Positions 21,936 through 42,587 of a stretch of DNA of 55,327 bases are shown in pieces. Within the stretch, counting starts at the first letter, position 1. Every line of letters begins with the position of its first letter. A program made the translations under genes and the position numbers. The notes below the pieces were generated by a model, which ran no database searches, had not been told where the DNA came from, and saw only the letters and a list, made by a program, of their open reading frames with translations. Source of the DNA: Lysobacteraceae bacterium. Its GTDB lineage: Bacteria > Pseudomonadota > Gammaproteobacteria > Xanthomonadales > Ahniellaceae. Where the stretch lies: assembly GCA_021299185.1 (NCBI GenBank), contig JAJTHZ010000021.1, positions 1-55,327 on the forward strand. The letters are read 5' to 3'.

Positions 21936-24248
21936 TCAGAAGCGGTACACGAACGACAGGCTGGCCACCCACACGTTGTAGTCGGGGCTGTCCTCGCCGA
22001 GCGTGATCACGTTCGCCAACTGGTTCGCCGGCACGCCGTCCACCGCCCAGTCGGTCGATGCATAGTCCTCGTAGGCGAAGCGCAGGCGCGCGGTGAGGTT
22101 CCTGCGGAACGCCCAGTCGCCGTAGATCGACGTCGACGTCAGGTCGGTGGTCGCGGTCGGCAGCGGCGCGGCCGTGAGCGCGGGGCCGACCGAAGTCGCG
22201 ACGTCGGCATCCGTGTTGGCCCGCACGTAGTCGATGCCGAGCTTGAGCTTGCCCTCGAGGAAGCGCGCGTTGGCGCCGAGTCCCCAGGTGTCGACGTCGT
22301 CGCGACTGCGCGTGGTCCAGTTGCGGTTCGGGTCGAAGGGTGTCGTGGCGCGCGTGGCGCCCGCCCACGAGCGACCATCCTGGTCGTTCTTGTAGCGTTC
22401 GACCGAGTAGAAGCCGTACACCGAGCCGTCCTCGCCCGGCGCCCAGGTCAGATCGACGTTGTAGCCGTTGACCCGGCTGAAGGTGAGCCCGAACTCGGAG
22501 TTGTCGTAGTCATCCTCGCTGTAGTTGACGTTGAGGCCCAGGGCGAGTGTTTCGCCGAGTGCGAGGCTGGCGAACACTTCGGCCTGCCGCCGCTGGCGGT
22601 CGGCCTGGTTGAACTTGCGCATGCCGGGCAGGTTCTCGAACGGGAAGCCGTCGACGAGCGGCAGCAGGGTGCTGGTGTAGCCCGGGGCGTAACCGTTGAT
22701 GAAGGTCTCGTAGCCGCGGTATTCGCTGCCGTCGCGGTCGGCGATCGAGAGGCGGACGCCTCCCGAGACGAGGCCCGCGCTGTTGTTGGTGAAGGACAGC
22801 GCGTAGCGGTCCTCGTCCAGTTCCTCGCGCTCCTGGTGCGGCCGTTCGATCCGCTTCCACTGCGCCTCGCCGGCGATGCGCAGCCAGTCGAGCGCCCGCC
22901 ACGTCCCGTCGAGGCGGAACGAGGTCTCCTCCTGCGACTTCGGCTCGTTGAAGCGGCGGAAACTGCTGTTGGCGGCCGTGTTCTGCGTGTTCGAGTCGCC
23001 GCCGATGTAGACGTACTCGTCGTGCGGCGTCTTGTTGTCGCGGTCGTCGTAGCGCAGGTTCGCGTTCCAGTAGAACGTCGACGACGGTCGGTGCGAGAAG
23101 CGCAGCGCCGCGTAGGTGCTGTCGACGCGCCCGTCGAGCGACAGACGCGGCAGCGGCTGGGTGATGCTCGCCGCCAGCACCGGGTTGATGGTGTAGGGCA
23201 GGAAGGCGTCGTCCTGCGTGGCCCGGCCGTACGACAGGTCGCCGGTCAGCCGCATGGTGTCGCTGATCGACCAGCCGCCGGAAGCGTAGAACTGGTGGAA
23301 GGCGTTGTCCGGCTCGAGATGCATCTGCCCCTGGCCGGCCGGGAATCCCGCCGAGGTCCAGCCGGTGATGTTGGTGTAGGGGTTCTGCCAGCGCAGGAAG
23401 CTGTTCTCGTCGTCGAACAGCGACATGTAGTAGCCGATCCGCAGCTGGTAAGTCGGCTGCGCGAAGGTGAGCGCGACGTCGGCGGTCTGGGTCAGGTAGT
23501 CGACCGGCTCCGGCGCGAGCACCGAGCGCGGGTTGCCGCCCGAGTTGCCGATCGTGAGGCCGATCGTCTTGAGGCCGTCCTTCTCCTCGCGGCTGTAGGC
23601 CGTCTCGAGGTGCCACTTCGGCGCCGGGATCCATTCGAAACCGACGTCGAACCTGCGCCGCTCGTGCTCGACGTCGAACGGCCGCAGCGATTCGGCCAGC
23701 CGCGTCAGACCCGCGGTGTTCTGCGCCCCGACCCAGTTGGACGGCAGCGTGAGGCTGGTCGATCCGGGATTGGTGAAGATCGTGGTCGCGGTGTCGAGGT
23801 GGTTGTGCGGCACCTGGTCGAACCCGAGCCGGAACGCCCAGCGGCCCTGGCGCCCGTACTCGAACGCGGCCTCGCGCGAATCCAGCCCGAGGTTCTCCGC
23901 CTCCGCGCGCCAGTAAGTGGGATCGTCGCCGTCCCAGGCCCCGCGCTTGAAGATGTCGAAGCCCAGCACCGCGAACACGCCCTCGTCGGTGAGGCCGGTG
24001 TAGCGCCCGTAGCGGAAGGCGTCGTCACTGAGGAAGCCGAGGCCGACCTCGACCGTGCTCGACACCTGGGTCTGCTCCTCGAGCAGTTCCGCCGTGTCCT
24101 TCGCGGGCTCTTCGCCTTCCAGCGAGAACTCGTCCTGCGCCAGCGCGGGCACCGAGGCCAGCGCCATCGCGAACACGGCGGCGCGGATCGCCTGCAGGGC
24201 GAAGTGCGCGCGGATGGCACGTGACAGGGGATTGCGTTCGATCTTCAT
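21936..24248 (-). CDS. MtrB/PioB-family outer-membrane barrel protein
   Basis: A 770-residue precursor, start ATG at 24248, with a signal peptide ending near VPALAQ (residue 38) and a C-terminal VYRF typical of outer-membrane barrels. Tandem beta-strand repeats with aromatic girdles fill the sequence from about 65 onward. The family forms the sheath in which an MtrA/DmsE-type decahaem cytochrome crosses the outer membrane. I see no cysteine anywhere, so the CxxC near the N-terminus of Shewanella MtrB is absent. It is last of the four-gene operon, 30 bp after the decahaem cytochrome gene, with GAGGCGAG before the ATG. No gene for a surface cytochrome follows; hutF converges. Confidence 0.9.
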   Translation of the reverse strand: MKIERNPLSRAIRAHFALQAIRAAVFAMALASVPALAQDEFSLEGEEPAKDTAELLEEQTQVSSTVEVGLGFLSDDAFRYGRYTGLTDEGVFAVLGFDIFKRGAWDGDDPTYWRAEAENLGLDSREAAFEYGRQGRWAFRLGFDQVPHNHLDTATTIFTNPGSTSLTLPSNWVGAQNTAGLTRLAESLRPFDVEHERRRFDVGFEWIPAPKWHLETAYSREEKDGLKTIGLTIGNSGGNPRSVLAPEPVDYLTQTADVALTFAQPTYQLRIGYYMSLFDDENSFLRWQNPYTNITGWTSAGFPAGQGQMHLEPDNAFHQFYASGGWSISDTMRLTGDLSYGRATQDDAFLPYTINPVLAASITQPLPRLSLDGRVDSTYAALRFSHRPSSTFYWNANLRYDDRDNKTPHDEYVYIGGDSNTQNTAANSSFRRFNEPKSQEETSFRLDGTWRALDWLRIAGEAQWKRIERPHQEREELDEDRYALSFTNNSAGLVSGGVRLSIADRDGSEYRGYETFINGYAPGYTSTLLPLVDGFPFENLPGMRKFNQADRQRRQAEVFASLALGETLALGLNVNYSEDDYDNSEFGLTFSRVNGYNVDLTWAPGEDGSVYGFYSVERYKNDQDGRSWAGATRATTPFDPNRNWTTRSRDDVDTWGLGANARFLEGKLKLGIDYVRANTDADVATSVGPALTAAPLPTATTDLTSTSIYGDWAFRRNLTARLRFAYEDYASTDWAVDGVPANQLANVITLGEDSPDYNVWVASLSFVYRF

Positions 24249-24278
24249 GGCTCGCCTCGCATCCGGTCGAATGGGGAA

Positions 24279-25205
24279 TCAGCGCGTCTGGCGGGCGCCC
24301 GACGGATGGTTCGACCCGTGCACTTCGGTGTGGCAGTTCATGCAGTTCTTGCCCAGCATCTGCTGCGCGCCCGATGGCCGCGTGGCGCCCGGCAGCCCGG
24401 TGCCGCTGTACGCGGTCGACGGGTGGTTGCCGGCGGAGTGGCACTGCTCGCACAGCCAGGGGCCACGCGTGTTGAGCATCGCGACGTGCACCGAGCCGTG
24501 CGGCTTGTGGCAGTGGCCGCAGTCGTCGTTGACCGGCTGGTGCTCCCACAGGAACGGGCCGCGCTTGTCGGCGTGGCACTGGTAGCAGGTCTCGACGGTG
24601 TTGTTCTTGACCAACTGCGACGGCGCGGTCGAACCGTGCGGGTTGTGGCAATCGGAACACGCGACCTTGCCTTCGCGGATCGGGTGGCGGAACGGCTTGA
24701 ACAGGTCCGCGCGCTGCTCCTGGTGGCAACCCAGGCAGACCTCGAACTGCTGGCCCTTGTCGAGGACCGCATCGTGCGCGACATGCGTGTCGTGACAACC
24801 CGAGCAACTGACGCTCTCGTTGTCATGCGCGCTGCCGGCCCAGTGCATCTGCGCGCCGCCCTGGTGGCAGGTCAGGCACACCTGGTTGCCGGTCTTGGCG
24901 TCGGCCTCCTTGAACGTCACGTCGGGCGCGGGCTTGTTATCGCCTTCGCCGTCGAGGTGCGCCTGGCTCGCGCCGTGGCAGGTGACGCAGGCCTGGTCGG
25001 CGAACGGCGTGCGCTCGTCCGCGACCACGCCGTGCTTGGTCTTGAGGATCGGCAGGACGGGCACCTCGGAGGTTTCGTCGTGGCACTTCACGCACGACTT
25101 GTAGCCGGGGTTGTCGGCGCCTTCGGCGGCGCGCGACGGCGGGGCTGAGACGCCGAGCGACAGGAGCGCCGCGGCAAGCCAGGCGTGGATGCTGCGCAGT
25201 TGCAT
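24279..25205 (-). CDS. DmsE/MtrA-family decahaem c-type cytochrome
   Basis: A 308-residue periplasmic precursor with a signal peptide (about 1-27). Ten CxxCH motifs begin at residues 38, 73, 110, 134, 157, 183, 207, 229, 252 and 288, the full set of the MtrA/DmsE/PioA family. Many additional histidines, such as KHGV and the HPI, HNPHG, HKPHG motifs, can serve as distal ligands for bis-His haems. The start at 25205 was chosen because GGAGG stands six bases upstream and the signal peptide begins there; the open frame to 25265 overlaps the preceding gene. It should form an electron wire through the barrel protein encoded next. Whether electrons flow out or in cannot be told from sequence. Confidence 0.93.
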   Translation of the reverse strand: MQLRSIHAWLAAALLSLGVSAPPSRAAEGADNPGYKSCVKCHDETSEVPVLPILKTKHGVVADERTPFADQACVTCHGASQAHLDGEGDNKPAPDVTFKEADAKTGNQVCLTCHQGGAQMHWAGSAHDNESVSCSGCHDTHVAHDAVLDKGQQFEVCLGCHQEQRADLFKPFRHPIREGKVACSDCHNPHGSTAPSQLVKNNTVETCYQCHADKRGPFLWEHQPVNDDCGHCHKPHGSVHVAMLNTRGPWLCEQCHSAGNHPSTAYSGTGLPGATRPSGAQQMLGKNCMNCHTEVHGSNHPSGARQTR

Positions 25206-25261
25206 GGTGGCCTCCAGGTGTTCGTTCCGGTGCCCCGCGCCGGGCGGCGCGGGACGGCGGG

Positions 25262-26218
25262 TCATTGCTTCTTCGCGACGAGGTCGGCCGCGCCGCCATC
25301 GATCGACAGCGAGTGCTCCATCGAGACGTAGTGCCAGCGTCCCTTGGTGAACCCGTCATGGATCGCGATCCCTACCGGGTAGACGTTGCCGGCGGTGAAG
25401 CTCTTCTGGCCCGGGCCTGCGCCGGCCAGCGGCCGGCTCAGCACCACCGTCCACTCGCCACCGGCGAAGGTCGCGTCCGCGGCCACCGCGGGGCTCGCAG
25501 CCTTGTGCGGCTTGTCGAGGATGTAGCCGTTGGCTGCAACCGGCGGCTTGCCCGGCGCGAGTGCCGCGGACCAGTACTCGAGGAAGGTTCCGGCGGCCAG
25601 CAGCTTGTCGATGTCGGCCTGCGGCTTGAGGTTGGCACCACCGCCCGTGCGGCCCAGCTTGGCGCGCGATGCGCCGAGGTACTTCTCCTGCGGTGCCGCG
25701 CCGGCGGAGGCCATGCCCTCGACGTCGTCGTGGCAGCCCGCCCAGCAGCCGGCGCGCACGGCTTCCTTCACCGAGGCGTCGCTGAGCATCACGCTGGCGT
25801 GCGCGGCGAACTCGGACTGCTTGGCGTTGCTGCCGGTCTCCTTCCACTGCAGGCGGAAGTACAGCTTCGTGCCGTCGTGCGCGACCTGCACCTTGATGGG
25901 CAGGTGGCCCGGCTTGCCGGCGATCGGCGATGGCTCGAGCTTGCCGGCCTCGGCGATCTTCGCACCGTCCTTGGCGATCGACTCGGCGTCATGGCACTGC
26001 CTGCAATCCTTGCCGCCGCGGAATTTCTCCGCGCCTTCGTGGTCGTTCTTGGTCAGCACCCACTCCCACGAGGCCTGGCCCGCGTAGGCCAGCGCGATGT
26101 CCTTGGCGGGCACGCCGGCCCAGTCCACGGCGAGCGCCTGCGTGGCCGGCAGGCCGGCGAGCAGGCAGGCGAGGGCGAGCGGGCGCAGCATGGCGCGAGC
26201 GTTGCTGATCGAGGTCAT
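25262..26218 (-). CDS. Ethylbenzene-dehydrogenase-type haem-binding cytochrome
   Basis: A 318-residue periplasmic precursor; signal peptide to about ALA30. One CxxCH (CRQCH, 72-76) predicts a c-type haem. The region from about 105 to 310 resembles the haem-binding domain of the ethylbenzene/DMS dehydrogenase gamma-subunit family (HLPIKVQVAHDGTKLYFRLQW). A second cysteine pair is CWAGCH (158-163), a CxxxCH spacing whose haem attachment is uncertain. Start ATG at 26218, 14 bp after the stop of the NapC-type gene; the frame open to 27721 crosses that gene and is rejected. No molybdenum catalytic subunit is nearby, so it is probably an electron carrier between the quinol dehydrogenase and the decahaem cytochrome. 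That role is inferred from order. Confidence 0.8.
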   Translation of the reverse strand: MTSISNARAMLRPLALACLLAGLPATQALAVDWAGVPAKDIALAYAGQASWEWVLTKNDHEGAEKFRGGKDCRQCHDAESIAKDGAKIAEAGKLEPSPIAGKPGHLPIKVQVAHDGTKLYFRLQWKETGSNAKQSEFAAHASVMLSDASVKEAVRAGCWAGCHDDVEGMASAGAAPQEKYLGASRAKLGRTGGGANLKPQADIDKLLAAGTFLEYWSAALAPGKPPVAANGYILDKPHKAASPAVAADATFAGGEWTVVLSRPLAGAGPGQKSFTAGNVYPVGIAIHDGFTKGRWHYVSMEHSLSIDGGAADLVAKKQ

Positions 26219-26232
26219 GGCAGTTTTCCGGC

Positions 26233-26841
26233 TCACAGTGAGAAGTCCTCGGACTCGCCTTCCTCGGCCGGCATGTCCGGCTTGCGATGGGCGATGCCCT
26301 TGTGGCAGTCGATGCAGGTCTCGCCGCTCTTGGCGGCATCCTCGTGCGATTCGCGCGCGCGGCTCGATTGCGCGGCGAAGTCCATGTAGGCGCGGTTGTG
26401 GCACGAGCGGCATTCGCGGGAGTCGTTGGCCTTCATCTCCGCCCACACGACTTCGGCCATCTCCAGCCGACGGGCCTCGAACTTCTCGGGCGTGTCGATC
26501 CAGCCGAAGATCTCGCCGGGGACATCGGTCCAGGCGGCGCGGATCTTGCGCTGCATCTTGGGGATGAAGTCCTTCGCGAGGTGGCAGTCGGCGCAGCCGG
26601 CGCGCACCCCGGAGCGATTGGTGTAGTGGGAACTCGCTTCCCACTCCGGCGCGACGTGCGTGCGCTGCGAGTGGCAGGCGTAGGCGCAGAACTGGTCGGT
26701 GCCGGTCAGGTGCAGGCTGGTGTTGAACACCGCCACGAACGCGATGCCTGCGACGAAGCCGCCACCGAGCAGGGTGCCCAGGGCCCAGCGCGTGCTGGGC
26801 GTCCACAACCCGCGCCACAACCGCTTCAGCCATCCGAACAC
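26233..26841 (-). CDS. NapC/NirT-family tetrahaem quinol dehydrogenase
   Basis: A 202-residue protein with an N-terminal membrane anchor (about 19-40) and a periplasmic head. Haem sites are CAYACH (52-57), CADCH (83-87), CRSCH (144-148) and CIDCH (176-180). The first has a CxxxCH spacing and is followed by SQ, where classical NapC/NrfH/CymA proteins have CxxCH followed by a methionine ligand. HYTNRSGVRAGCADCH matches the family's second haem region. It starts with GTG at 26841 after a strong GGGGAGG site. Members oxidise membrane quinol and pass electrons to periplasmic cytochromes. As the first gene of the operon it is the likely entry point, and an FNR-type box lies 102 bp upstream. Confidence 0.9.
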   Translation of the reverse strand: MFGWLKRLWRGLWTPSTRWALGTLLGGGFVAGIAFVAVFNTSLHLTGTDQFCAYACHSQRTHVAPEWEASSHYTNRSGVRAGCADCHLAKDFIPKMQRKIRAAWTDVPGEIFGWIDTPEKFEARRLEMAEVVWAEMKANDSRECRSCHNRAYMDFAAQSSRARESHEDAAKSGETCIDCHKGIAHRKPDMPAEEGESEDFSL

Positions 26842-26942
26842 GCTGACCTCCCCGACGATGTTGCCGACGCTTCGGGCTGCGCCCGCGAACCGGGCATCGC
26901 CCCCATTGGCGGCGACTGTGCGGGCGCGCGACGCCGGAGGTG

Positions 26943-26956
26943 TTGATCGAGGTCAA
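26943..26956. promoter_or_regulatory. FNR/Anr/FixK-type box, cytochrome operon/prenyltransferase
   Basis: TTGATCGAGGTCAA matches TTGAT-N4-ATCAA with one change (A to G) and fully fits TTGAY-N4-RTCAA. It lies in the 242-bp divergent region between the NapC-type gene (minus) and the prenyltransferase gene (plus). On the minus strand CACAGT (26920-26915), a three-of-six -10 box, stands exactly 22 bases away, the spacing of a class II activated promoter. This favours low-oxygen activation of the cytochrome operon. The rest of the region shows no other clear site. Confidence 0.6.
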
Positions 26957-27083: not shown

Positions 27084-28064
27084 GTGAAGCACATCGATGA
27101 CCCGCGCGCGGTCGCCGCGCTGCCGCAGGAGCCCACGCCCGACACCCTGCGCGCGCCGATCGCACGCCTGCTGGTGGCGACGAGGCCGCCGTTCCTCACG
27201 ATCACGCTGGTCGGCGCCTTGCTCGGCGTGGCCAGCGCGTGGGCGGACGGCGCGCACCTTTCGCCCTGGATCGCGCCCGTCACGGTGCTGCTCGCCTTGA
27301 CCATGCATGCTGCGGTTAACGTGCTCAACGACTGGTGCGACCACGTGAACGGCACCGACGAGATCAATGTCGGGCGGCTGTATCCGTTCACCGGCGGGTC
27401 GCGCTTCATCCAGAACGGCCTGATGTCGCCGGCGGCGATGCGCGCCTTCGCGCTGGCGCTGTTCGCGTTCACGATCGCCGGCGGCCTGCTGCTGGTGGCG
27501 AAGGTCGGCCCGGGGCTGCTGTGGTTCGGCATCGCCGGTGCTGCGATCGGCTGGGCGTACTCGGCGCCGCCGCTCGCGCTCAACAGCCGCGGCTTCGGCG
27601 AAGCGTGCGTGGCGGCTTCGTTCTGGCTGCTGGTCGCAGGCGCGGACTTCGTCCAGCGCGGCGCGTTCTCGGCGACGCCCTTCCTCGCCGGCGGGGCGTA
27701 TGCGTTGCTGACCACCAACATCCTCTACATCAACCAGTTCCCGGATCGCGCCGCGGACCTCGCGGTGGGCAAGCACCACTGGGTGGCGCGCCTCGCGCCG
27801 GAGACCGCGCGCTGGGGTTACGTGGCGATCCTGCTGGCCGCACTGCTTGCCCTGGTGGCGCCGGTGGCGCTCGGTGCGCTCACCCCGTGGGCCTTGCTCG
27901 GCCTGGTGGCCTTCGTGCCGGCGGCGTCGGCGGCGCGCGGCCTGCTCCGCCATGCCGCGGAACCGCAGCACCTCGCGCCCAGCATCAAGCAGACCATCGC
28001 CGCGGCGCACATCGCCGCCGTGCTGGTCGCGGTCGGTTTCCTGATCGCAGGTCGCGCCGGCTGA
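27084..28064 (+). CDS. UbiA-family prenyltransferase, MenA-like
   Basis: A 326-residue integral membrane protein with about eight or nine helices. The two aspartate-rich motifs that bind prenyl diphosphate and Mg are NVLNDWCDHVNGTD and NQFPDRAADLAVGK; the second is closest to 1,4-dihydroxy-2-naphthoate prenyltransferase (MenA). Start GTG at 27084 was chosen because GGAGG (27071-27075) precedes it; the open frame to 26940 would cross the FNR-type box. If it is MenA, the cell makes menaquinone, which NapC/CymA-type proteins often use. Other men genes are not in the window, so a different aromatic acceptor is possible. It is convergent with hupE. Confidence 0.75.
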   Translation: MKHIDDPRAVAALPQEPTPDTLRAPIARLLVATRPPFLTITLVGALLGVASAWADGAHLSPWIAPVTVLLALTMHAAVNVLNDWCDHVNGTDEINVGRLYPFTGGSRFIQNGLMSPAAMRAFALALFAFTIAGGLLLVAKVGPGLLWFGIAGAAIGWAYSAPPLALNSRGFGEACVAASFWLLVAGADFVQRGAFSATPFLAGGAYALLTTNILYINQFPDRAADLAVGKHHWVARLAPETARWGYVAILLAALLALVAPVALGALTPWALLGLVAFVPAASAARGLLRHAAEPQHLAPSIKQTIAAAHIAAVLVAVGFLIAGRAG

Positions 28065-28092: not shown

Positions 28093-28674
28093 TCAGCCGA
28101 AGACCAGCACCAGTCCCGCGAGCGCGATCGCACCTCCCGCGACGCGCGCGAGGGCCTTGCCTTCGCGCACGACGCGCAGCGCGACGGCGAGGCCCAGGCC
28201 GGCGCCGTGCAGCGCCGCCGTGCTGGCCATGAAGCCGGCGATGTAGGCCAGCGCAGCGGCCTGCGACGGCAGCTCCGCGCCGTGGGCCTGCCCATGGAAC
28301 ACCGCGCAGGTTGCGACCAGCACGACCGCCAGCATCGGTCGCAAGCGCAGCGCGAAGGCCGTCGCGAGCCCGATCGCGAGCACGCTGAGCGCGATCAGTT
28401 GTTCGGTCGGCGCACCGCTGCCGAGGCCGGCCATGCCGGAGAACGCACCCAGCGCCATCGCGCTGATGAAGGCGAGCGGCAACTGCCAGCGCGCAGCACC
28501 CCCGAGCATGCCCGCGAAGAGGCCGACGCCCAGCATCGCCAGCAGGTGGTCGAATCCGCCCAGCGGATGCGCGAGGCCCGCCGCGAAGCCATGCACGGTG
28601 TCGTGGCCACCGTGCGCCATTGCCGTGCCCGACGCCAGCAGCGCGGGCAGCACGAACCACAGCTTGCGAGTCAT
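28093..28674 (-). CDS. hupE: HupE/UreJ-family nickel permease
   Basis: A 193-residue protein with an N-terminal hydrophobic signal-like segment ending MAHGGHDTVHG, then LAHPLGGFDHLLAMLGVGL, the histidine-bearing HupE signature, and about six membrane helices. HupE proteins import nickel for hydrogenase or urease. Start ATG at 28674 follows GGAGGACAAGCG. It is divergent from hyaA across a 259-bp region that contains an FNR-type box, so nickel uptake and hydrogenase synthesis may be induced together. No urease gene is present. Confidence 0.9.
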   Translation of the reverse strand: MTRKLWFVLPALLASGTAMAHGGHDTVHGFAAGLAHPLGGFDHLLAMLGVGLFAGMLGGAARWQLPLAFISAMALGAFSGMAGLGSGAPTEQLIALSVLAIGLATAFALRLRPMLAVVLVATCAVFHGQAHGAELPSQAAALAYIAGFMASTAALHGAGLGLAVALRVVREGKALARVAGGAIALAGLVLVFG

Positions 28675-28933: not shown

Positions 28934-30043
28934 GTGGGCCGCCAGGAAACCTTCTACGAGACGATCCGCCGCCAGGGCATCTCGCGCCGCAGCTTCATGA
29001 AGTTCTGCGCCTTGACCGCGGCGTCGCTGGGCCTGGCGCCGGAGTTCGCGGGCCGCATCGCGCATGCGATGGAAAACAAGCCGCGCGTGCCGGTGCTGTG
29101 GCTCAACGGCCTCGAATGCACCTGCTGCTCCGAATCGTTCATCCGCAGCGCGCATCCGCTGGTGCGCGACGTCGTGCTGTCGATGGTCTCGCTCGACTAC
29201 AGCCACACCCTGATGGCCAGCGCGGGCCACCAGGCGGAGGAAATCCTCGAAGAGATCCGCCGCGACTACAAGGGGCGCTACATCGCCGCGATCGAAGGCA
29301 ATCCGCCGCTCAACGAGGACGGCATGTACTGCATCGTCGGCGGGCGCCCGTTCGTCGAACAGTTGAAGGAAGTCTGCGCCGACGCCAGCGCGGTGATCGC
29401 CTGGGGCTCGTGCGCGTCGTGGGGCTGCGTGCAGGCCGCGAAGCCGAACCCGACCGCCGCGACGCCGATCCACAAGGTGATCACCGACAAGCCGGTGATC
29501 AAGATCCCGGGTTGCCCGCCGATCGCGGAGGTGATGACCGGCGTGATCACCTACATGGTCGCCTTCGACCGCCTGCCCGAGCTCGACCTGATGGGCCGGC
29601 CGAAGATGTTCTACAGCCAGCGCATCCACGACAAGTGCTACCGCCGGCCGCATTTCGACGCCGGGCAGTTCGCCGAGAAGTTCGACGACGAAGGCTCGCG
29701 CATGGGCTACTGCCTGTACAAGGTTGGCTGCCGCGGCCCGACGACCTACAACGCGTGCTCGACGATCGGCTGGAACGAAGGTACCTCGTTCCCGATCCAG
29801 TCCGGGCACGGCTGCATCGGGTGCTCGGAAGAACACTTCTGGGACAACGGGCCCTTCTACCAGCGACTGCTGGGCACGCGGCTGCTGAACGCCGAGGTCA
29901 ACGCCGATACCGTCGGCGCCGTGACCGTCGGGCTGGTGGGCGCCGGCGTGGCCGCGCACGCGGGCCTGTCCGCCCTGCAGCGGGCGCGCGAGAAGGCGGG
30001 GCGCGCGAGCGCCGCGCCCGTCGACACCGGCGTGGAGGGTTGA
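28934..30043 (+). CDS. hyaA: [NiFe] uptake hydrogenase small subunit
   Basis: A 369-residue periplasm-facing subunit holding three Fe-S clusters. The Tat signal is [13 protein letters not shown] (12-24), and a C-terminal membrane helix (about 315-340) anchors it. LECTCCSES (60-68) and GSCASWGC (158-165) give, besides the usual ligands, extra cysteines at 64 and 165. These match the six-cysteine proximal cluster of O2-tolerant group 1d enzymes such as E. coli Hyd-1. [11 protein letters not shown] and HGCIGCSE supply the medial cluster. Start is GTG at 28934 with GGAGGG upstream. It heads a long operon. Confidence 0.96.
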
Positions 30044-30046
30044 GCG

Positions 30047-31837
30047 ATGAGCACGACCACACCCAACGGCTTCAATCTCGACGCCAGCGGCCAGCGCATC
30101 GTGGTCGACCCGGTGACCCGGATCGAAGGCCACATGCGCGTCGAGGTCAACGTCGATGCCGACAACGTGATCCGCAACGCGGTGTCCACCGGGACCATGT
30201 GGCGCGGTCTGGAGGTGATCCTCAAGGGTCGCGACCCGCGCGACGCCTGGGCCTTCACCCAGCGCATCTGCGGCGTCTGCACCGGCACCCATGCGCTGGC
30301 GAGCGTGCGCGCGGTGGAGCACGCGCTCGGGATCGCGATCCCGGAGAACGCGAACACCATCCGCAACATCATGCAGTTGACGCTCTACGTGCACGACCAC
30401 ATCGTGCACTTCTACCACCTGCACGCGCTCGACTGGGTGGACGTGGTGTCCGCGCTGTCGGCCGATCCTAAGGCGACCAGCGAACTCGCGCAGTCGATCT
30501 CGTCCTGGCCGCTGTCGTCGCCGGGCTATTTCCGCGACCTGCAGGGCAAGCTCAAGCGCTTCGTCGAATCCGGCCAGTTGGGCCCGTTCAAGAACGCGTA
30601 CTGGGGCCACCCGGGCTACAAGCTGCCCGCCGAGGCCAACCTGATGGCCGTCGCGCACTACCTCGAAGCGCTCGACTTCCAGAAGGAGATCGTCAAGATC
30701 CACGCGATCTTCGGCGGCCGCAACCCGCACCCGAACTGGCTGGTCGGCGGGGTGGCGAGTCCGATCAACGTCGACGACATCGGCGCGGTCGGCGCGGTCA
30801 ACATGGAGCGCCTGAACCTGGTGCGCAGCATCATCGACCGCTCGATCGAGTTCACCGAGCAGGTCTACATCCCCGACCTGGTCGCGATCGCCGGCTTCTA
30901 CAAGGGCTGGCTCTACGGCGGCGGCCTGTCGTCGAAGAACGTGATGTCGTACGGCGAGTTCCCGGCGCGCGCGAACGATTACTCGGCGGCCAGCCTGATG
31001 ATGCCGCGCGGCGCGATCATCAACGGCGACCTGTCGACGGTGCACGACATCGACCTCGAGGACCGGTCCGAGATCGTCGAGTACGTGGCCCATTCCTGGT
31101 ACCGCTACGCCGACGAAACCAAGGGCTTGCACCCATACGACGGGGTGACCGAGCCGAGCTTCGTGCTCGGGCCGAACGCCAAGGGCAGCAAGACGCGCAT
31201 CGAGCAGATCGACGAGGGTGCGAAGTACTCGTGGATCAAGGCGCCGCGCTGGAAGGGCAACGCGATGGAGGTGGGACCGCTCGCGCGCTACGTCATCGGC
31301 TACGCCAGGGGCATCCCGGAGTTCAAGGAACCGACCGACCGCCTGCTGTCGACGCTCGGCGCGCCGGTCGGCGCGCTGTTCTCGACCCTCGGGCGCACGG
31401 CGGCGCGTGGCCTCGAGTGCCAGTGGGCCGCGCACAAGCTGTCCTCGGAGTTCGACAAGCTGATGGCGGCGATCAAGGCCGGCGACCGGGCGACCGCCAA
31501 CACCGCCAAGTGGGAGCCGGCGACCTGGCCCAATCCCTGCCGCGGCGTCGGTTTCGCCGAGGCCCCGCGCGGCGCGCTCGGCCACTGGGTGCGCATCGAG
31601 GACGGCAAGATCGCCTCCTACCAGTGCATCGTGCCGACCACCTGGAACGGCGGTCCGCGTGACGTGGAGGGCAACATCGGCGCGTTCGAGGCCGCGCTGC
31701 TCGACACCCCGGTCGCCGACGTCAAGCAGCCGCTGGAGATCCTGCGCACGCTGCACAGCTTCGATCCCTGCCTCGCCTGCTCGACGCACGTGCTGAGCCC
31801 GGACGGCGAAGAGCTCACCCGCGTCGAAGTGCGCTGA
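30047..31837 (+). CDS. hyaB: [NiFe] uptake hydrogenase large subunit
   Basis: A 596-residue catalytic subunit. The Ni-Fe(CN)2CO site is bound by RICGVC (73-78) and DPCLACSTH (573-581). The 15 residues after His581 ([15 protein letters not shown]) are the C-terminal peptide expected to be removed by the HyaD protease once nickel is in place. It has no signal peptide and should travel with HyaA through the Tat system. It begins 3 bp after hyaA. The sequence is close to HyaB of E. coli throughout, in line with group 1d. Confidence 0.97.
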
Positions 31838-31846: not shown

Positions 31847-32587
31847 ATGGCATCCGTCGTCCAACCCAAGCACGACCCCGGGCAGATCCAGCGCCCGCGC
31901 AACCCGCCGCCCGGGCGCACGCCGTGGGCGGTGTACGTCTACGAGGCCCCGGTACGGCTGTGGCACTGGGTCACCGTGGTCTGCATGCTGGTGCTGGTGG
32001 TCACCGGGTACCTGATCGGCGCGCCGCCGCCGGCGATCCTCGGCGAGGCGAGCAACAGCTACCTGTTCGGCTACATCCGGATGGCGCACTTCATGGCGGG
32101 GCAGGTGCTCGCCGTGTTCTTCGTGCTGCGCATCTACTGGGCCTTCGTCGGCAACCACCACGCGCGCGAGGTGTTCCTGCCGCCGCTCCACCGCCGGTCG
32201 TGGTGGAAGGGTCTGTTCGACCAGCAGCTCTACTACCTGTTCATCAAGCCCGAGGCGAAGAAGCACCTCGGGCACAACCCGCTGGCCGGGATCGCGATGT
32301 TCGCGATGTGCATACTGCCACTGGCCTTCATGATCGTCAGCGGTTTCGCGCTGTACGCCGAAGGGCTGGGGATGCAGCACTGGATGTACTCGGCCTTCGG
32401 CTGGGTCATCCCGCTGTTCGGTGGGTCGTTCTACGTGCACACGCTGCACCACATCGGCATGTGGATCCTGATCGTGTTCAGCTGCATCCACACCTATCTC
32501 GTGTTCCGCGAGGACATCATGGGCCGCACCAGCATCGTGTCGACCATGGTGTCGGGATGGCGCTTCATGAAGGACGACCGGCCATGA
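31847..32587 (+). CDS. hyaC: Hydrogenase cytochrome b subunit
   Basis: A 246-residue membrane protein with four hydrophobic helices and the usual histidines for two b haems: RLWHWVTVVCM, MRMAHFMAGQ-like (IRMAHFMAGQVLAV) and LHHIGMWILIVFSCIHTY. It anchors the hydrogenase in the inner membrane and passes H2 electrons to quinone. Its stop overlaps the hyaD start as ATGA. The reading frame is complete and of normal length. Confidence 0.95.
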   Translation: MASVVQPKHDPGQIQRPRNPPPGRTPWAVYVYEAPVRLWHWVTVVCMLVLVVTGYLIGAPPPAILGEASNSYLFGYIRMAHFMAGQVLAVFFVLRIYWAFVGNHHAREVFLPPLHRRSWWKGLFDQQLYYLFIKPEAKKHLGHNPLAGIAMFAMCILPLAFMIVSGFALYAEGLGMQHWMYSAFGWVIPLFGGSFYVHTLHHIGMWILIVFSCIHTYLVFREDIMGRTSIVSTMVSGWRFMKDDRP

Positions 32588-33207
32588 GCGCCGCGCCGCG
32601 CGTCCTGGTGCTCGGGGTCGGCAACCTGCTGTGGGCCGACGAGGGATTCGGCGTGCGCTGCGTGGAGGCCTTCGCGCGGCGCTGGTCGGTGCCGCCCGGC
32701 GTGGAACTGATGGATGGCGGCACCCAGGGCCTGTACCTGGTGCAGCACATCGCGGACGCCGAGCGCGTGCTGGTGTTCGACGCGGTCGATTTCGGCGCCC
32801 CGGACGGGACCCTGGTGGTGGTCCGCGACGCCGACGTGCCGTCATTCATCGCACGCGGCAAGATGAGCCTGCACCAGGCCGGCGTGGCCGACGTCCTGGC
32901 CTGCGCCGAACTGCTCGGCCGCAAGCCGGTCGCGCTGACCGTCATCGGCGCGCAGCCGGTCGAACTCGAGGATTACGGCGGCAGCCTCACGCCGACCGTG
33001 CGTGCGCTGGTACCGCGCGCGGTGGAACTGGCCGCAGAGGAACTGCGTGCCTGGGGCGTCGAACTGGTCGAACGCACCGATGCCCCGCCGGAGGTGATCG
33101 TGCCCGCGCTGTCGATCGAGGCCTACGAGAGCGGCCGCCCGTCGGCGGACGCGGCGTGCCGCCACGGCGACGAGCGCGTGCTGGCCGCAGTGGCGCCGGG
33201 GCGCTGA
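32584..33207 (+). CDS. hyaD: Hydrogenase maturation endopeptidase
   Basis: A 207-residue protease of the HyaD/HupD family that trims the large subunit. The nickel-sensing metal ligands are visible at GNLLWADEGFG (Glu/Asp), FDAVDFG (Asp) and SLHQAG (His). The C-terminal extension after about residue 165 is longer than in the smallest family members but typical of HupD-type proteins. The ATG at 32584 overlaps the hyaC stop. Confidence 0.94.
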   Translation: MSAAPRVLVLGVGNLLWADEGFGVRCVEAFARRWSVPPGVELMDGGTQGLYLVQHIADAERVLVFDAVDFGAPDGTLVVVRDADVPSFIARGKMSLHQAGVADVLACAELLGRKPVALTVIGAQPVELEDYGGSLTPTVRALVPRAVELAAEELRAWGVELVERTDAPPEVIVPALSIEAYESGRPSADAACRHGDERVLAAVAPGR

Positions 33208-34780: not shown

Positions 34781-35520
34781 ACGACCGATTCGAAGGCACC
34801 TGGCTCGGTGGCCAGGATGGACTGGACGCGGCTGCGCGGATGGAATGCGGCATCTGCTGGACCGTGTACGACCCGGCCCTCGGCGACCCCGGCGCGAAGA
34901 TCGCCGCCGGCACGCCGTTCAGCGCGCTGCCGGAGCACTGGCACTGCCCGTCGTGCGATGCGCCGCGCGAGAAATTCATGGTGCTGGATGCGGCCGGGCC
35001 GCGGTCGGCCGAGCGCGCGGTGGTGGACGTCGAGGCGCAGGTCCGCGCCCGCGTGCTGGCGCTGGAGAACGCCTTCCGGCAGCGCGATCCGCGGATGCGC
35101 GAACTGCCGGTCTACAACGGCTTGCTGCGGGTCGAGGCGGTGGGCGCGCGGCGCGACGGCGATCGCGTCGCCTGCGTGCTGGTGAGTCCGTGGTTCATGA
35201 ACATCGTGGTGCTGCCGCTCGATCCCGCCCGCGCGCCGGTCCTGGCGGAGGGCAGCAAGCGCACGCTGCGTTTCCCCTCCGGCGACTACGAGGCCATCGC
35301 GGGCCGGATCGACGGGGTCGGGCTGTTCGAGAGCGTTTCGCTGTTCTCGCCGGTGTTCGAGTTCGGCGACCAGGCGGCGGCGCGCGCCACCGCGCAGTCC
35401 GCCGCCGATGGCTTGTTCGAAGCGCCGGCCAGCCGGCAGGCGCCGGCCGTGGTCGCTGCGGCCGCCGAGGCGCCGCGCGCCATCGGCCGGCGCGAACTGC
35501 TGTTCGGCCGCGGGGCCTGA
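34777..35520 (+). CDS. Rubredoxin-HybE/HupJ fusion protein
   Basis: A 247-residue protein with two parts. Residues 20-72 form a rubredoxin domain, with iron ligands CGIC (24-27) and CPSC (57-60). Residues about 82-215 match the HybE/HupJ/HoxT hydrogenase assembly family (LPVYNGLLRVEAVG, VLVSPWFMNIVVLPLD, LRFPSGDYEAIAG). In Rhizobium and others the two are separate genes (hupI and hupJ). The rubredoxin domain protects or reduces the small subunit's clusters in air. The ATG overlaps the hyaF stop. The C-terminus ends RRELLFGRGA. Confidence 0.88.
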   Translation: MNDRFEGTWLGGQDGLDAAARMECGICWTVYDPALGDPGAKIAAGTPFSALPEHWHCPSCDAPREKFMVLDAAGPRSAERAVVDVEAQVRARVLALENAFRQRDPRMRELPVYNGLLRVEAVGARRDGDRVACVLVSPWFMNIVVLPLDPARAPVLAEGSKRTLRFPSGDYEAIAGRIDGVGLFESVSLFSPVFEFGDQAAARATAQSAADGLFEAPASRQAPAVVAAAAEAPRAIGRRELLFGRGA

Positions 35521-36482: not shown

Positions 36483-36816
36483 GATGTCGCTGTGCCAGGA
36501 GCTCGCCCGCCTGATCGCCGAACGCGCGGCGGCGGACGGGTTCTCGCGCGTCCGACGCGTGGTGCTCGACATCGGCGCGCTGTCGCACGTGATGCCCGAG
36601 GCGATGGTCTTCGGCTTCGACGTGGCGACGCGCGGCGGGCCGGCCGAAGGCGCGCTGTTGGAGATCCGGCGCCCGCCCGGCACCGCCTGGTGCACCGACT
36701 GCGCCGCGAGCCGCGCGATCGCCGCGCGTGGCGATGCCTGCCCGGTGTGCGGCGGGCACAAGCTGCTGGTCACCGGCGGCGACGACCTGCGACTGAAGGA
36801 ATTGGAGGTGGTCTGA
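36475..36816 (+). CDS. hypA: Hydrogenase nickel-insertion protein HypA
   Basis: A 113-residue HypA. The N-terminal [10 protein letters not shown] gives the nickel-binding His2, and a zinc site is formed by CTDC and CPVC. It works with HypB to put nickel into the large subunit. Start ATG at 36475 lies inside the end of hupK. Its stop overlaps the hypB start as TGATG. Confidence 0.95.
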
Positions 36817-37757
36817 TGTGCACCGTCTGCGGCTGCGCGAGTGGTGAGGTCCGCATCGACCCCGACCGGGTGTTCGCGGACGCGCGCTTCGAACCGGCAC
36901 CACCGGCACCCCGCATCGCGCGGGCCGGCCTGGTCGCGCCGGCCCACGAAGCGGGCCGGTCCGACACGCATGATCATCCGCCTGCGAGCGCGCACCGGCA
37001 CGCGGTCGCGGCACCGGTCGCGGACGCCGGCGAAGACCTGCACTGCCTGCCGGCGCCGCGATCCGGATTGTCGGCGGCCGGCATCCCGGAGTCGCGCCTG
37101 GTGCGCATCGAGGCCGACCTGCTGGCGAAGAACGACGCCATCGCGCGCGGCAATCGCGCGCACTTCGCCGGCCACCGCGTGCTGGCCCTCAACCTCGTGT
37201 CGAGCCCCGGCAGCGGCAAGACCACCTTGCTGGTCCGCACGCTGGAGGCCCTGCGCGGGCGCCTGCCGCTGGCGGTCATCGAGGGCGACCAGCAGACCAG
37301 CAACGACGCCGCGCGCATCCGCGCGACCGGGGTGCCGGCGGTGCAGGTCAACACCGGCAAGGGCTGCCACCTCGACGCGTCGATGGTCTCGCGCGCTTTC
37401 GATCGCCTGCACGGAATGCAGGACGGCGTGCTGTTCATCGAGAACGTCGGCAACCTGGTCTGCCCGGCGGGTTTCGACCTCGGCGAGGCGCACAAGGTGG
37501 TGCTCGCGTCGGTCACCGAGGGCGAGGACAAACCGCTCAAGTATCCCGACATCTTCGCGGCCTCGAGCCTGATGCTGGTGTCCAAGGTCGACCTGCTGCC
37601 GCACCTCGATTTCGACGTCGATGCGCTGGTGGCCAACGCGCGCCGCGTGCGGCCGGGGATCGCGGTGATCCGCGTTTCGGCGCGCACCGGCGAGGGCATG
37701 GAGGCCTGGCTGAAGTGGATCGACGCCGCGCGCACGGTGCAGGGCCTGTCGCCCTGA
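36816..37757 (+). CDS. hypB: Hydrogenase nickel-insertion GTPase HypB
   Basis: A 313-residue HypB. The N-terminal CTVCGC (2-7) is the high-affinity nickel site, followed by a short His-rich stretch ([13 protein letters not shown]). The GTPase part shows the P-loop [33 protein letters not shown] and SKVDLL. It drives nickel transfer by GTP hydrolysis with HypA. The start overlaps the hypA stop by one base. Confidence 0.96.
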
Positions 37758-37768
37758 GCACGGCCTGC

Positions 37769-40136: not shown

Positions 40137-40370
40137 ATGTGCCTCGCCGTACCGGCCGAAGTCATCGAGGTCGTCGACGCCACGCGTGCGCGCGTCAGCC
40201 TCGGCGGCGTGGTCAAGGAAATCGCCCTGCACCTGGTCGACGGCGTGGTCGTCGGCGACTACGTGCTGGTGCACGTGGGGTTCGCGCTGGGCAAGATCGA
40301 TCCCGAGGAGGCCCGGCGCACGCTGGACGCGCTGCGCGCCCTCGGCGAGTCGCTGGAGGACGCGGCATGA
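40137..40370 (+). CDS. hypC: Hydrogenase chaperone HypC (second copy)
   Basis: A 77-residue HypC starting MCLAVPAEVIEVVDATRARV, the typical short form that complexes with HypD. It follows a 112-bp gap after hypF, the largest in the operon, which contains the palindrome CTGCGGCGCCGCAG (40028-40041) and a GGGAGG ribosome site just before the ATG. The gap could hold an internal promoter for hypCDE, though no clear boxes are seen. Its stop overlaps hypD (ATGA). Confidence 0.94.
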   Translation: MCLAVPAEVIEVVDATRARVSLGGVVKEIALHLVDGVVVGDYVLVHVGFALGKIDPEEARRTLDALRALGESLEDAA

Positions 40371-41500
40371 AGTACATCGACGAGTTCCGCGACGGCGCTG
40401 CAGCGCGCGCGCTCGCCGCGCGCATCACCGCCGAGGCCGAGACCGGCCGCGAGTACCGACTGATGGAGTTCTGCGGCGGACACACGCACGCGATCTTCCG
40501 CTACGGCATCCCGGACCTGTTGCCGCCGAACGTGCGGCTGATCCACGGCCCGGGCTGCCCGGTGTGCGTGCTGCCGATCGGCCGCCTCGACCTCGCGATC
40601 GACCTCGCCATGCGGCCCGACGTGACCCTGTGCACCTACGGCGACATGATGCGCGTGCCCGGCTCGCGCAAGCGCAGCCTGCTGCGCGCCAAGGCCGAGG
40701 GCGCCGACGTGCGGATGGTGTATTCGGCGACCGACGCGCTGCGCATCGCGCGCGAACAGCCACGGCGCGAGGTGGTGTTCTTCGCGATCGGCTTCGAGAC
40801 CACCACGCCGCCGACCGCGGTCGCGGTGCACACCGCCGGCGCGCAAGGCCTCGCCAACTTCTCGGTCTACTGCAACCACGTGCTCACGCCGCCGGCGCTG
40901 GTGCACCTCCTCGAGACCGCGAACCCGGACGACCCGGAACCGGTCCGCATCGACGGCTTCATCGGCCCGGCCCATGTCTCGGTGGTGATCGGTACCGACG
41001 CCTACCAGCGCTTCGCCGAGCACTATCGCAAGCCGGTGGTGATCGCGGGCTTCGAGCCGCTGGACGTGCTGCAGTCGATCCTGCTGCTGGTGCGGCAGTT
41101 GAACGAGGGCAGGGCGACGATCGAGAACCAGTACAGCCGCGCGGTGGTGCCGGCCGGCAACCTGCGCGCGCAGGCGATCGTGGGCGACGTGCTCGAGGTC
41201 CGCGAGTCGTTCGAATGGCGCGGTCTCGGCGAGGTGCCGTTCTCGGCCCTGCGCCTGCGCGAGCACCACGCCGCGCACGACGCGGAGAAACGCTTCGCGG
41301 TCGCACCGTCGCGCGCGCGCGAGAACAAGGCCTGCGAGTGCCCGGCGATCCTGCGCGGCGTCAAGCGGCCCACCGACTGCGGCATCTTCGGCACGGTGTG
41401 CACGCCGGAGAACCCGATGGGCTCGTGCATGGTGTCCGCGGAAGGCGCATGCGCGGCCTACTACACCTACGGCCGGCACACGGTGCCGGCCGTGGCCTGA
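40367..41500 (+). CDS. hypD: Hydrogenase maturation scaffold HypD
   Basis: A 377-residue HypD, which with HypC builds the Fe(CN)2CO unit. Key motifs are FCGGHTHAIFRYG, HGPGCPVCV, and near the C-terminus the [4Fe-4S] cysteines in CECPAILRG, DCGIFGTVCTPENPMGSC and EGACAAYY. The ATG overlaps the hypC stop. Length and motifs are complete. Confidence 0.96.
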   Translation: MKYIDEFRDGAAARALAARITAEAETGREYRLMEFCGGHTHAIFRYGIPDLLPPNVRLIHGPGCPVCVLPIGRLDLAIDLAMRPDVTLCTYGDMMRVPGSRKRSLLRAKAEGADVRMVYSATDALRIAREQPRREVVFFAIGFETTTPPTAVAVHTAGAQGLANFSVYCNHVLTPPALVHLLETANPDDPEPVRIDGFIGPAHVSVVIGTDAYQRFAEHYRKPVVIAGFEPLDVLQSILLLVRQLNEGRATIENQYSRAVVPAGNLRAQAIVGDVLEVRESFEWRGLGEVPFSALRLREHHAAHDAEKRFAVAPSRARENKACECPAILRGVKRPTDCGIFGTVCTPENPMGSCMVSAEGACAAYYTYGRHTVPAVA

Positions 41501-41525
41501 CGCGCAAACGCCGCGAGGAGCCCGC

Positions 41526-42587
41526 ATGGACCTGCCCGAACCGACATCCCGCCCGCTGAAGTCGCGCACCCTCGACCTCGTGCGCGGCCGGATCGACATG
41601 AGCCATGGCGGCGGCGGTCGCGCGATGGCGCAGTTGATCGACGAGGTGTTCCGCGCGGCCTTCGACAACCCGGTGCTGGACCGCGGCGACGACCAGGCGC
41701 AGCTCGACATCGGCGCCGGCCGCCTCGCCTTCACCACCGACTCCTACGTGATCTCGCCGCTGTTCTTCCCGGGCGGCGACATCGGCAGCCTCGCCGTGCA
41801 CGGCACGGTCAACGACCTCGCGATGGCGGGCGCGGTGCCGAAGTGGCTGTCGTCGGCGTTCATCGTCGAGGAAGGCTTCCCGCTGGCCGACCTCAAGCGC
41901 ATCGCGGACTCGATGGGCGCGGCGGCGCGCGCGGTCGGCATGCAGGTAGTGACCGGCGACACCAAGGTGGTCGAGCGCGGCAAGGGCGACGGCGTGTTCA
42001 TCAACACCACCGGCATCGGCGTGGTGCCCGCGGGGGTCGACATCCACGCGCGCCGCGCGCGGCCCGGCGATCGCATCCTCGTCTCCGGCACGATCGGCGA
42101 CCACGGGGTCGCGATCCTCTCGCACCGCCAGGGCCTGGCGTTCGAGACCGACCTGGTGTCGGATTCCGCGCCACTGCATGGCGTGGTGGCGGCGATGCTG
42201 GCCGTCGCGCCGGACCTGCACGTGCTGCGCGACCCGACCCGCGGCGGCGTGGCCGCGACCCTCAACGAGATCGCGCAGGCCGCGGGCGTGGGCATCCGGC
42301 TCGACGAGCGCGCGCTGCCGATCCGCGCGCAGGTGCGGGGCGCCTGCGAACTGCTCGGCCTCGATCCGCTCAACGTCGCCAACGAGGGCAAGTTGCTGGC
42401 GATCTGCAGCGAAGCCGACGCCGAACGGGTACTGGCGGCGATGCGTGCCCACCCATTCGGCCGCGAGGCGGCGATCATCGGCAGCGTGGTCGAGGACGCG
42501 CAGCGATTCGTGTCGATGGACACCGTGTTCGGCGGCCGGCGCATGGTGGACTGGCTGGTCGGCGAGCAGTTGCCGCGCATCTGCTGA
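41526..42587 (+). CDS. hypE: Carbamoyl-dehydrating enzyme HypE
   Basis: A 353-residue HypE of the PurM/ThiL fold. It ends in LPRIC, whose terminal cysteine receives the carbamoyl group from HypF and is dehydrated to thiocyanate. Also visible are MSHGGGGRAMAQLI at the start and TVNDLAMAGAVP in the ATP-binding region. A GAGGAG site lies before the ATG. It closes the hydrogenase operon and is convergent with ratA, with only 9 bp between the stop codons. Confidence 0.96.
   Translation: MDLPEPTSRPLKSRTLDLVRGRIDMSHGGGGRAMAQLIDEVFRAAFDNPVLDRGDDQAQLDIGAGRLAFTTDSYVISPLFFPGGDIGSLAVHGTVNDLAMAGAVPKWLSSAFIVEEGFPLADLKRIADSMGAAARAVGMQVVTGDTKVVERGKGDGVFINTTGIGVVPAGVDIHARRARPGDRILVSGTIGDHGVAILSHRQGLAFETDLVSDSAPLHGVVAAMLAVAPDLHVLRDPTRGGVAATLNEIAQAAGVGIRLDERALPIRAQVRGACELLGLDPLNVANEGKLLAICSEADAERVLAAMRAHPFGREAAIIGSVVEDAQRFVSMDTVFGGRRMVDWLVGEQLPRIC

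Follow-up and report, generated by a model that had tools for sequence, protein, structure and literature searches.

Reduction of minerals fed by H2 is known physiology, in which the donor enzyme and the outer membrane wire are usually encoded apart. Here we describe a 20.7-kb island (positions 21,936 to 42,587) of a Lysobacteraceae bacterium in which the genes of an outer membrane electron conduit stand beside a full [NiFe] hydrogenase operon. The window analyzed is one whole contig of 55,327 bases (JAJTHZ010000021.1), from a genome of 4.84 Mb in 270 contigs that is 98.9% complete. We consider it fairly probable that the island works as a single respiratory unit, induced when oxygen is low, in which H2 is oxidized and the electrons are exported.

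Each part of such a unit is already known; the published accounts compared below are cited from excerpts of the articles. Like the island, the MtrCAB conduit of Shewanella and its partner CymA (PDB 6r2q; PMC8805035) combine a NapC-family quinol dehydrogenase with a decaheme cytochrome and an MtrB barrel. The island differs from them in having no MtrC/OmcA protein above cut-off, in a diheme cytochrome of the EB_dh family that replaces FccA/CctA, and in holding a hydrogenase and a prenyltransferase as well. The c-552-MtrA-MtrB operon of Telmatospirillum (PMC6933298; WASQ01000140.1, our locus L098) encodes a protein of the same EB_dh family (48% identity) upstream of a DmsE-type decaheme cytochrome and MtrB. 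No MtrC is reported there in the excerpted text, and the authors placed the diheme protein outside the cell. Unlike the island, L098 lacks matches to NapC and to HyaA/HyaB within the examined stretch. The mtoABD-cymA genes of Sideroxydans (PMC10654088) likewise combine an MtrAB-type conduit, a NapC-family protein and a small periplasmic carrier without MtrC; however, that carrier, MtoD, is not an EB_dh protein, the system is thought to run inward, and the excerpt mentions no hydrogenase. A group 1 [NiFe] hydrogenase and MtrABC occur in one genome in Wenzhouxiangellaceae MAG19 from an oxic-anoxic interface (PMC13055281, 2026), with no linkage of the two reported in the excerpted text. Among the matches listed in the open-license literature, none reports the recurring union of a group 1 hydrogenase, a MenA-like prenyltransferase and an MtrAB conduit described here, and none reports a hydrogenase and mtrAB in one operon or island.

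All named genes of the island were present by profile searches. The four-gene cytochrome operon, the prenyltransferase, hupE and the full hya/hyp set described in a first-pass annotation were each confirmed by Pfam/NCBIfam matches. The conduit genes form a minus-strand quartet in the order napC, EB_dh, decaheme, mtrB, with gaps of 14, -4 and 30 bases. To its right lie the MenA-like prenyltransferase gene (plus strand), hupE (minus strand) and then hyaABCD through hypE (plus strand). The genes central to the argument are as follows.

21936..24248, minus strand: MtrB/PioB outer membrane barrel, 770 amino acids (PF11854, E = 6.9e-150; TIGR03509, 465 bits, cut-off 240; PDB 6r2q_B, E = 6e-52)
24279..25265, minus strand: DmsE/MtrA-family decaheme cytochrome, 10 CXXCH (TIGR03508, 281.8 bits, cut-off 192.2; PDB 6r2q_A, E = 4e-78)
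25262..26218, minus strand: EB_dh-fold diheme cytochrome (PF09459, E = 3e-31; Sec-type leader by eye)
26233..26841, minus strand: NapC/NirT tetraheme quinol dehydrogenase (PF03264, E = 1e-65; motifs and alignment)
27084..28064, plus strand: UbiA-superfamily MenA-like prenyltransferase (PF01040, E = 3e-24; the scanned frame began farther upstream, at 26940)
28093..28674, minus strand: HupE/UreJ family protein, which we take to be a nickel permease (PF04955, E = 1e-46)
28934..30043, plus strand: HyaA, hydrogenase small subunit with a twin-arginine translocation (Tat) leader (TIGR00391, 537.7 bits; TIGR01409)
30047..31837, plus strand: HyaB, [NiFe] hydrogenase large subunit (PF00374, E = 3e-228)
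31847..32587, plus strand: HyaC, cytochrome b subunit (TIGR02125, 221 bits, cut-off 121.5)
32584..33207, plus strand: HyaD/HupD maturation protease (TIGR00140, 189 bits, cut-off 151.8)

The barrel scores above its family cut-off and adjoins a decaheme cytochrome with ten CXXCH motifs, which identifies an MtrAB/PioAB-type conduit. The coordinates of the decaheme gene use the first in-frame ATG; the Met at residue 21 is the likelier start. HyaA carries the extra cysteines ECTCC and GSCASWGC, giving six at the proximal cluster, a signature that we take to mark O2-tolerant group 1d [NiFe] hydrogenases. The solved chains nearest to HyaB are those of Hyd-1/MBH enzymes (4c3o, 985.8 bits; 3uqy, 874; 3rgw, 865), and together with the cytochrome b subunit they place the enzyme, by nearest solved chains, in group 1d.

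Linkage of hydrogenase and conduit across the order

HyaB was found in 30 of 398 genomes of the order, MtrB above cut-off in 62, and both in 19. MtrB was above cut-off in 19/30 of the HyaB genomes and in 43/368 others (Fisher P = 5e-10, uncorrected for kinship). The surroundings of HyaB were examined in all 30 genomes, and in 8 of them a ten-heme frame lies 0.08 to 11.1 kb from it. These eight belong to three families: G000 (the window; family f1), G061 (f11), and G035, G048, G098, G128, G157 and G208 (f9). Linkage is tight, with the barrel on the same stretch, in six (G000, G048, G061, G098, G157 and G208) and looser in G035, where MtrB is 14.9 kb away. In G128 only a ten-heme frame stands beside HyaB before the contig ends, a candidate conduit member by heme count. 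G128 (L242, L241) appears to have two MtrC-sized ten-heme frames, one adjoining HyaB and the other on a different contig as part of an MtrAB-UbiA set.

The first-pass annotation had called the combination unusual for Xanthomonadales and had taken the case that the operons are never linked in relatives as one that would count against a joint function. The former is partly right, on the counts just given; the latter fails, as linkage recurs in the order. The idea of an adjacency unique to this genome was rejected, and the linkage part of the earlier interpretation is supported, both by its recurrence in relatives and by the promoter boxes carried by both kinds of operon in several of them.

Three hydrogenase types occur among the linked genomes, judged by nearest solved relative, to which we assign the group letters 1d, 1e and 1c. 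HyaB of G048 is nearest to 3myr (887 versus 742 for the next), and its gene is accompanied by isp1- and isp2-like genes, names that we assign from domain content. HyaB of G061 is nearest to the Hyd-2 chain 6en9 (746 versus 568 for 3myr); for the small subunit of G061 the best-scoring model is that of Hyd-2, at a score below the cut-off of the model. In G048 the genes form a single same-strand run (L234), hyaD-hyaF-small subunit-isp1-isp2-large subunit-mtrC-mtrA-mtrB-ubiA, in which successive genes are spaced by 51, 26, 11, -4, 6, 193, 129, 9 and 31 bases; both its MtrC (409 bits; cut-off, 209) and its MtrB (393 bits; cut-off, 240) exceed their cut-offs. L235 has the same gene order on the opposite strand. 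In G061 (L246/L256), napC, the decaheme gene, an MtrB_PioB barrel gene (PF11854, 66.6 bits) and ubiA share one orientation, and after them come hupE (minus strand) and the hydrogenase (plus strand). The ubiA-hupE-hydrogenase order is thus common to G061 and the window, whose UbiA and HupE proteins are 61% and 52% identical, respectively.

Four changes of linked state were counted on the HyaB tree, all four forced by starred branches, and four on the decaheme tree, at least three of them forced. Both are short-search trees in which rows on short contigs were scored as not linked. The HyaB tree holds 31 rows from 25 of the 30 order genomes (without G052, G146, G185, G191 and G196), and the decaheme tree 24 of 25 planned rows (without G007, whose open frame was over the length limit). 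On the HyaB tree the linked rows nonetheless occupy three distinct places, so that either the origin of the pairing or its retention and loss happened repeatedly. The decaheme cytochrome of G061 groups with that of G001, far from that of the window.

The two divergent promoter regions of the island each hold an FNR/ANR-type box, in agreement with the first-pass annotation.

26943..26956, no strand assigned: FNR/ANR-type box TTGATCGAGGTCAA, between napC and the prenyltransferase gene, 1 mismatch to TTGATNNNNATCAA
28762..28775, no strand assigned: FNR/ANR-type box TTGACCAAGGTCAA, between hupE and hyaA, 2 mismatches to TTGATNNNNATCAA

At up to 2 mismatches, TTGATNNNNATCAA matches 18 sites in the window against a shuffled mean of 3.84, and of the 16 besides these two, 10 fall within the ribosomal-protein region at positions 1 to 13,700. 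The stricter TTGAYNNNNRTCAA, which we take as the FNR/ANR consensus, has just two sites in the window, one per divergent promoter region. Counterparts stand upstream of napC in L010, L025, L238, L235 and L242, in L256 upstream of the operon that contains napC, and before the HyaA match in L195 (TTGATCGCGATCAA) and L246 (TTGATCGTGATCAA). TTGAYNNNNRTCAA recurs at these napC positions and before hydrogenase genes in L195, L246, L234, L236 and L237. Across 34 hand-picked stretches (608,740 bases) it has 27 sites, whereas two control patterns gave 1 site and none; a few boxes are at other positions (L234:34, L025:2313, L064:3015). The natural reading is that an anaerobic regulator of the FNR/ANR family would act on these predicted boxes. 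Among the EB_dh loci without TTGAYNNNNRTCAA are L061-L063, L072, L087 and L095.

A MenA-like gene lies on the HyaB stretch in 7/8 of the linked genomes, the window included, and in 0/22 of the others, many of which are represented by short stretches. In the eighth linked genome, G128, the MenA-like gene adjoins an MtrCAB-like set on another contig. The window protein falls below every MenA equivalog cut-off listed (TIGR00751, 71.4 versus 102.15; NF004751, 123.7 versus 264), as do the MenA-like copies of the scanned relatives. In the UbiA tree the window and G061 copies are sisters (99), and the f9 copies stand elsewhere. MenA-like relatives were found in 37/321 class genomes, the window's included. 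A general partnership of this prenyltransferase with conduits was also considered and set aside: at 20 loci from outside the order (stretches of 6 to 20 kb) none had MtrAB or a hydrogenase, and one had a nonaheme frame.

An export locus with a prenyltransferase of its own has been described in the FLEET (flavin-based extracellular electron transfer) system, where DmkA is a demethylmenaquinone prenyltransferase and the host was supplied with external 1,4-dihydroxy-2-naphthoic acid (DHNA) (PMC9888254). In Lactiplantibacillus plantarum the export locus encodes DmkA, and DHNA comes from outside supply; according to the excerpt, deletion of dmkA left the current unchanged and slightly lowered iron reduction (PMC9888254). 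The system differs from the island in being Gram-positive and flavin based, and by analogy it may serve as a precedent for locus make-up only.

Several observations weigh against a single unit. Many genomes carry the conduit or the hydrogenase alone, and no linkage was seen in 22/30 hydrogenase genomes. For 12 of these 22, all HyaB copies lie within 3 kb of a contig end; eight unlinked genomes (G012, G034, G039, G046, G058, G172, G207 and G262) have at least 7 kb on both sides of at least one copy. In G073, the closest kin of both halves, the two are on separate contigs (11.2 and 4.5 kb), and HyaB has 6.8 kb on one side without multiheme frames. HyaA and HyaB are absent near EB_dh in 80/80 named loci, including 28 whole quartets, with 35/80 loci covering at least 18 kb. 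A HyaB search among EB_dh carriers (47 hand-picked loci of the 80, 46 genomes) found a HyaB relative in 9/46 genomes, and in the 6 examined no frame with at least three CXXCH motifs lies near HyaB. The isolate Rehaibacterium terrae (L077) has the quartet, and the search gave no HyaB relative for it. Hence the hydrogenase does not belong to the EB_dh quartet as such, and the idea that it is a general companion of the quartet was rejected (0/80 loci). The extra cysteines of HyaA would suit aerobic H2 oxidation as well. TTGAYNNNNRTCAA is missing in 11/34 stretches, including the Hyd-1-like loci L198, L203, L251 and L269 (families f4, f8 and f12), and boxes also occur at f7 hydrogenases unlinked to cytochromes, so the box alone does not prove coupling. 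Finally, the genome has no MenB above cut-off (best 130 bits versus 342.7) and no MqnC match at E <= 1e-30.

Several of these observations would fit two independent neighbors, an O2-tolerant uptake hydrogenase serving aerobic respiration and a conduit serving other donors. The six-cysteine signature of HyaA, the lack of a hydrogenase beside EB_dh at 80/80 loci, the separation of the systems in G073 and the 22/30 hydrogenase genomes that are unlinked as far as seen all point that way. Against independence stand the recurrence of linkage in three families that differ in both hydrogenase and conduit, the FNR/ANR-type boxes on both operons and the shared run in L234. We regard this alternative as rather improbable.

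The precursor search covered MenB and MqnC, in a draft genome. Among 11 tested genomes MenB reached its cut-off in 2 (G073 and G208), with a shorter match in G098 (337 bits versus 342.7), and MqnC was found in 0/11; of 14 control genomes, 7 passed the MenB cut-off and 2 that of MqnC. With no MenB above cut-off and no MqnC, a low-potential quinone, the usual kind in export of this type, is putative here. More broadly, and on the doubtful side, respiration from H2 to the outside may have been assembled several times in the Lysobacterales as a self-contained island that joins whatever group 1 hydrogenase was available to MtrAB, with or without MtrC, under low-oxygen control, with a dedicated MenA-like prenyltransferase supplying a reserved quinone, perhaps, given the lack of MenB above cut-off and of MqnC, by prenylation of a scavenged aromatic ring.

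Direction of flow and the diheme cytochrome

If the island acts as one respiratory unit, HyaAB would oxidize H2 on the periplasmic side and HyaC would hand the electrons to a membrane quinone, proposed to be made or adjusted by the MenA-like prenyltransferase. NapC would re-oxidize the quinol, and the EB_dh diheme cytochrome would ferry electrons across the periplasm from NapC to the decaheme cytochrome. The latter, inside the MtrB barrel, would carry them through the outer membrane to a putative acceptor at the cell surface, and no dedicated MtrC would take part.

NapC has four heme sites, three CXXCH and a CX3CH (CAYACH) at the first site, and a membrane anchor (by eye). Domain, anchor and heme sites identify it as a NapC/NirT/CymA protein, with a score below the NCBIfam napC_nirT and NapC cut-offs. 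CX3CH at the first site recurs in 13 other frames (L085, L089, L090, L094, L096, L097, L102, L104, L106, L114, L116, L137 and L238), 8 of these in alphaproteobacterial records. No match to the OmcA/MtrC family (TIGR03507) was above cut-off anywhere in the 98.9% complete genome (best 18.8 bits), so the locus is not classed as MtrCAB, in line with the earlier claim that no surface cytochrome is present. Other multiheme frames of the genome could act at the surface, for example one of 906 residues with 8 CXXCH (G000:C59:17853-20570, L014), which has a weak HEAT match and ends at a contig edge. The decaheme cytochrome matched 1 of 72,556 plasmid records (Photobacterium, 39%).

We propose outward flow on the basis of three features: the presence of a hydrogenase in the island, boxes of the low-oxygen type and, in the linked island L234, an MtrC, which favors this direction. 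The resemblance of an MtrAB conduit with a NapC protein and no MtrC to mtoAB-cymA (PMC10654088), together with the lack of MtrC above cut-off in the genome, would instead suggest inward flow as proposed for Mto/Pio systems, from Fe(II) or another external donor to the quinone. In that case the island hydrogenase would add another donor to the external one rather than provide an acceptor. The low-oxygen-type boxes, MtrC in L234 and the MtrC-sized ten-heme frames in other f9 islands also argue against inward flow, as does the MtrC-less EB_dh-MtrA-MtrB operon (L098) of a genome obtained from a culture that reduces goethite (PMC6933298). Inward flow thus appears quite unlikely. A conduit serving a specific soluble external acceptor such as dimethyl sulfoxide (DMSO) or iodate, as DmsEF does, would agree with the membership of the decaheme cytochrome in the DmsE family. 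That family name, however, also takes in MtrA-like proteins (PDB 6r2q_A), and no DmsAB-like molybdoenzyme is among the scanned island genes; we judge this very improbable.

The EB_dh protein has a CXXCH motif at residues 72-76 and a CX3CH motif at 158-163. Both are invariant in 9/9 proteins found by a whole-protein search in which no motif was used, and again in 41/41 proteins of a larger alignment. The scan behind the 80 named loci used the pattern [ASY]GC[WY]xxCH[DN]D, which contains CX3CH and yields it by construction; only the invariance of CXXCH therefore counts in the 41-protein set. Met169, His287 and His296 are invariant in both sets, and one might guess that they are ligands of a further heme. 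A structure model (predicted local distance difference test [pLDDT] score 83; predicted template modeling [pTM] score 0.84) matches 2ivf_C, the gamma subunit of ethylbenzene dehydrogenase (Z 15.4, 187 aligned residues, root-mean-square deviation 3.5), then 7b04_C, a subunit of Kuenenia nitrite oxidoreductase (Z 13.9), and next a carbohydrate-binding module (Z 10.2). Domain and fold place the protein with the gamma subunits of type II DMSO reductases, although it scores below the TIGR03477 cut-off. A role as subunit of a local molybdoenzyme was set aside, with no molybdoenzyme among the scanned island genes, the search having covered the island only.

EB_dh is rare in the order, occurring in 8/398 genomes, in some as NapC-EB_dh fusions; at a stricter limit it occurs in 31/369 genomes of a class sample. 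The full quartet napC-EB_dh-decaheme-mtrB lies on one strand within 5 kb in 28/80 named loci, from gamma- and alphaproteobacterial records. By heme count, the 80 loci include 9 NapC-EB_dh and 2 multiheme-EB_dh fusions; one fusion of each type outside the 80 was verified by Pfam (L026, L029). These fusions place EB_dh beside NapC on one side and a multiheme cytochrome on the other.

This arrangement bears on a further possibility, that EB_dh is a cell surface cytochrome in place of MtrC, as suggested for its relative in Telmatospirillum, a protein predicted to be extracellular and encoded in the gene order c-552, mtrA, mtrB (PMC6933298). Fusion to a NapC-like part (9/80) or to a multiheme cytochrome beside MtrAB (2/80) suggests a periplasmic location instead, and the window protein has a plain Sec-type leader with no lipobox (by eye). 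A surface position is accordingly unlikely, and a periplasmic carrier role is proposed instead.

NapC-EB_dh fusion frames of about 590 to 650 residues occur at L026:10187-12025, L027, L028, L124, L125, L127, L129-L133 and L135; the L132 frame has 920 residues and two EB_dh-type heme pairs by motif count, and the L026 gene adjoins a frame resembling a cytochrome cd1 relative (by eye). L146:9206-18500 and L148:9158-18600 hold a nonaheme-EB_dh fusion beside a decaheme cytochrome and MtrB, with two more frames downstream of about 800 residues each and 10 to 11 CXXCH. The mtrA-DOMON gene of the Group 6 mtrCAB clusters (PMC8805035), likened here by its description, is probably this nonaheme-EB_dh fusion beside MtrAB; in the island, by comparison, EB_dh is a separate diheme protein and MtrC is lacking. 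L091 and L098 have EB_dh-MtrAB without a NapC match, and upstream of it a heptaheme frame and a stretch that is weakly HyaC-like (23-24%). A bioanode Methylobacter was reported with MtrA, MtrB and a "monoheme" periplasmic cytochrome (PMC13322032), a candidate EB_dh protein with an uncounted CX3CH.

Accessory genes, flanks and significance

The remaining genes of the hydrogenase operon, all on the plus strand, are the following.

33213-33515, plus strand: HupF/HypC-like (PF01455)
33519-33914, plus strand: HyaE (PF07449)
33911-34780, plus strand: HyaF/HupH (PF04809)
34840-35520, plus strand: rubredoxin-HybE/HupJ fusion (PF00301, PF11939)
35523-36482, plus strand: HupK-like, a weak match (PF00374, 17.4 bits, below the cut-off of 25.8)
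36475-36816, plus strand: hypA (PF01155)
36816-37757, plus strand: hypB (PF02492; start taken from MCTVCGC)
37715-40024, plus strand: hypF, start unsure (PF22521/PF17788/PF07503/PF00708)
40137-40370, plus strand: hypC (PF01455)
40367-41500, plus strand: hypD (PF01924)
41526-42587, plus strand: hypE (PF00586/PF02769)

The ribosomal-protein region at the left of the window also contains secY and rpoA, identified from translations, and the G+C content is constant at 0.71 from 13,700 to the right end. The island is flanked by two amidohydrolase genes on the left (19250-20476 and 20598-21902) and a urocanase gene on the right (45303-46979), which we take to be of the histidine utilization type, and the 20.7-kb block looks as if it had been inserted into one catabolic locus. 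Further left, a MerC family gene (18549-18971) separates the amidohydrolase genes from one for a TonB-dependent receptor.

If the proposed coupling is true, the island would provide a model of a conduit that works without MtrC and uses an EB_dh diheme carrier, and it would allow the idea of a quinone dedicated to electron export to be tested directly. The union of genes could also serve as a signature for finding organisms with H2-fuelled electron export. For an order regarded mainly as aerobic heterotrophs, the repeated physical coupling of hydrogenase and conduit would then mark H2 as a specific fuel of electron export.

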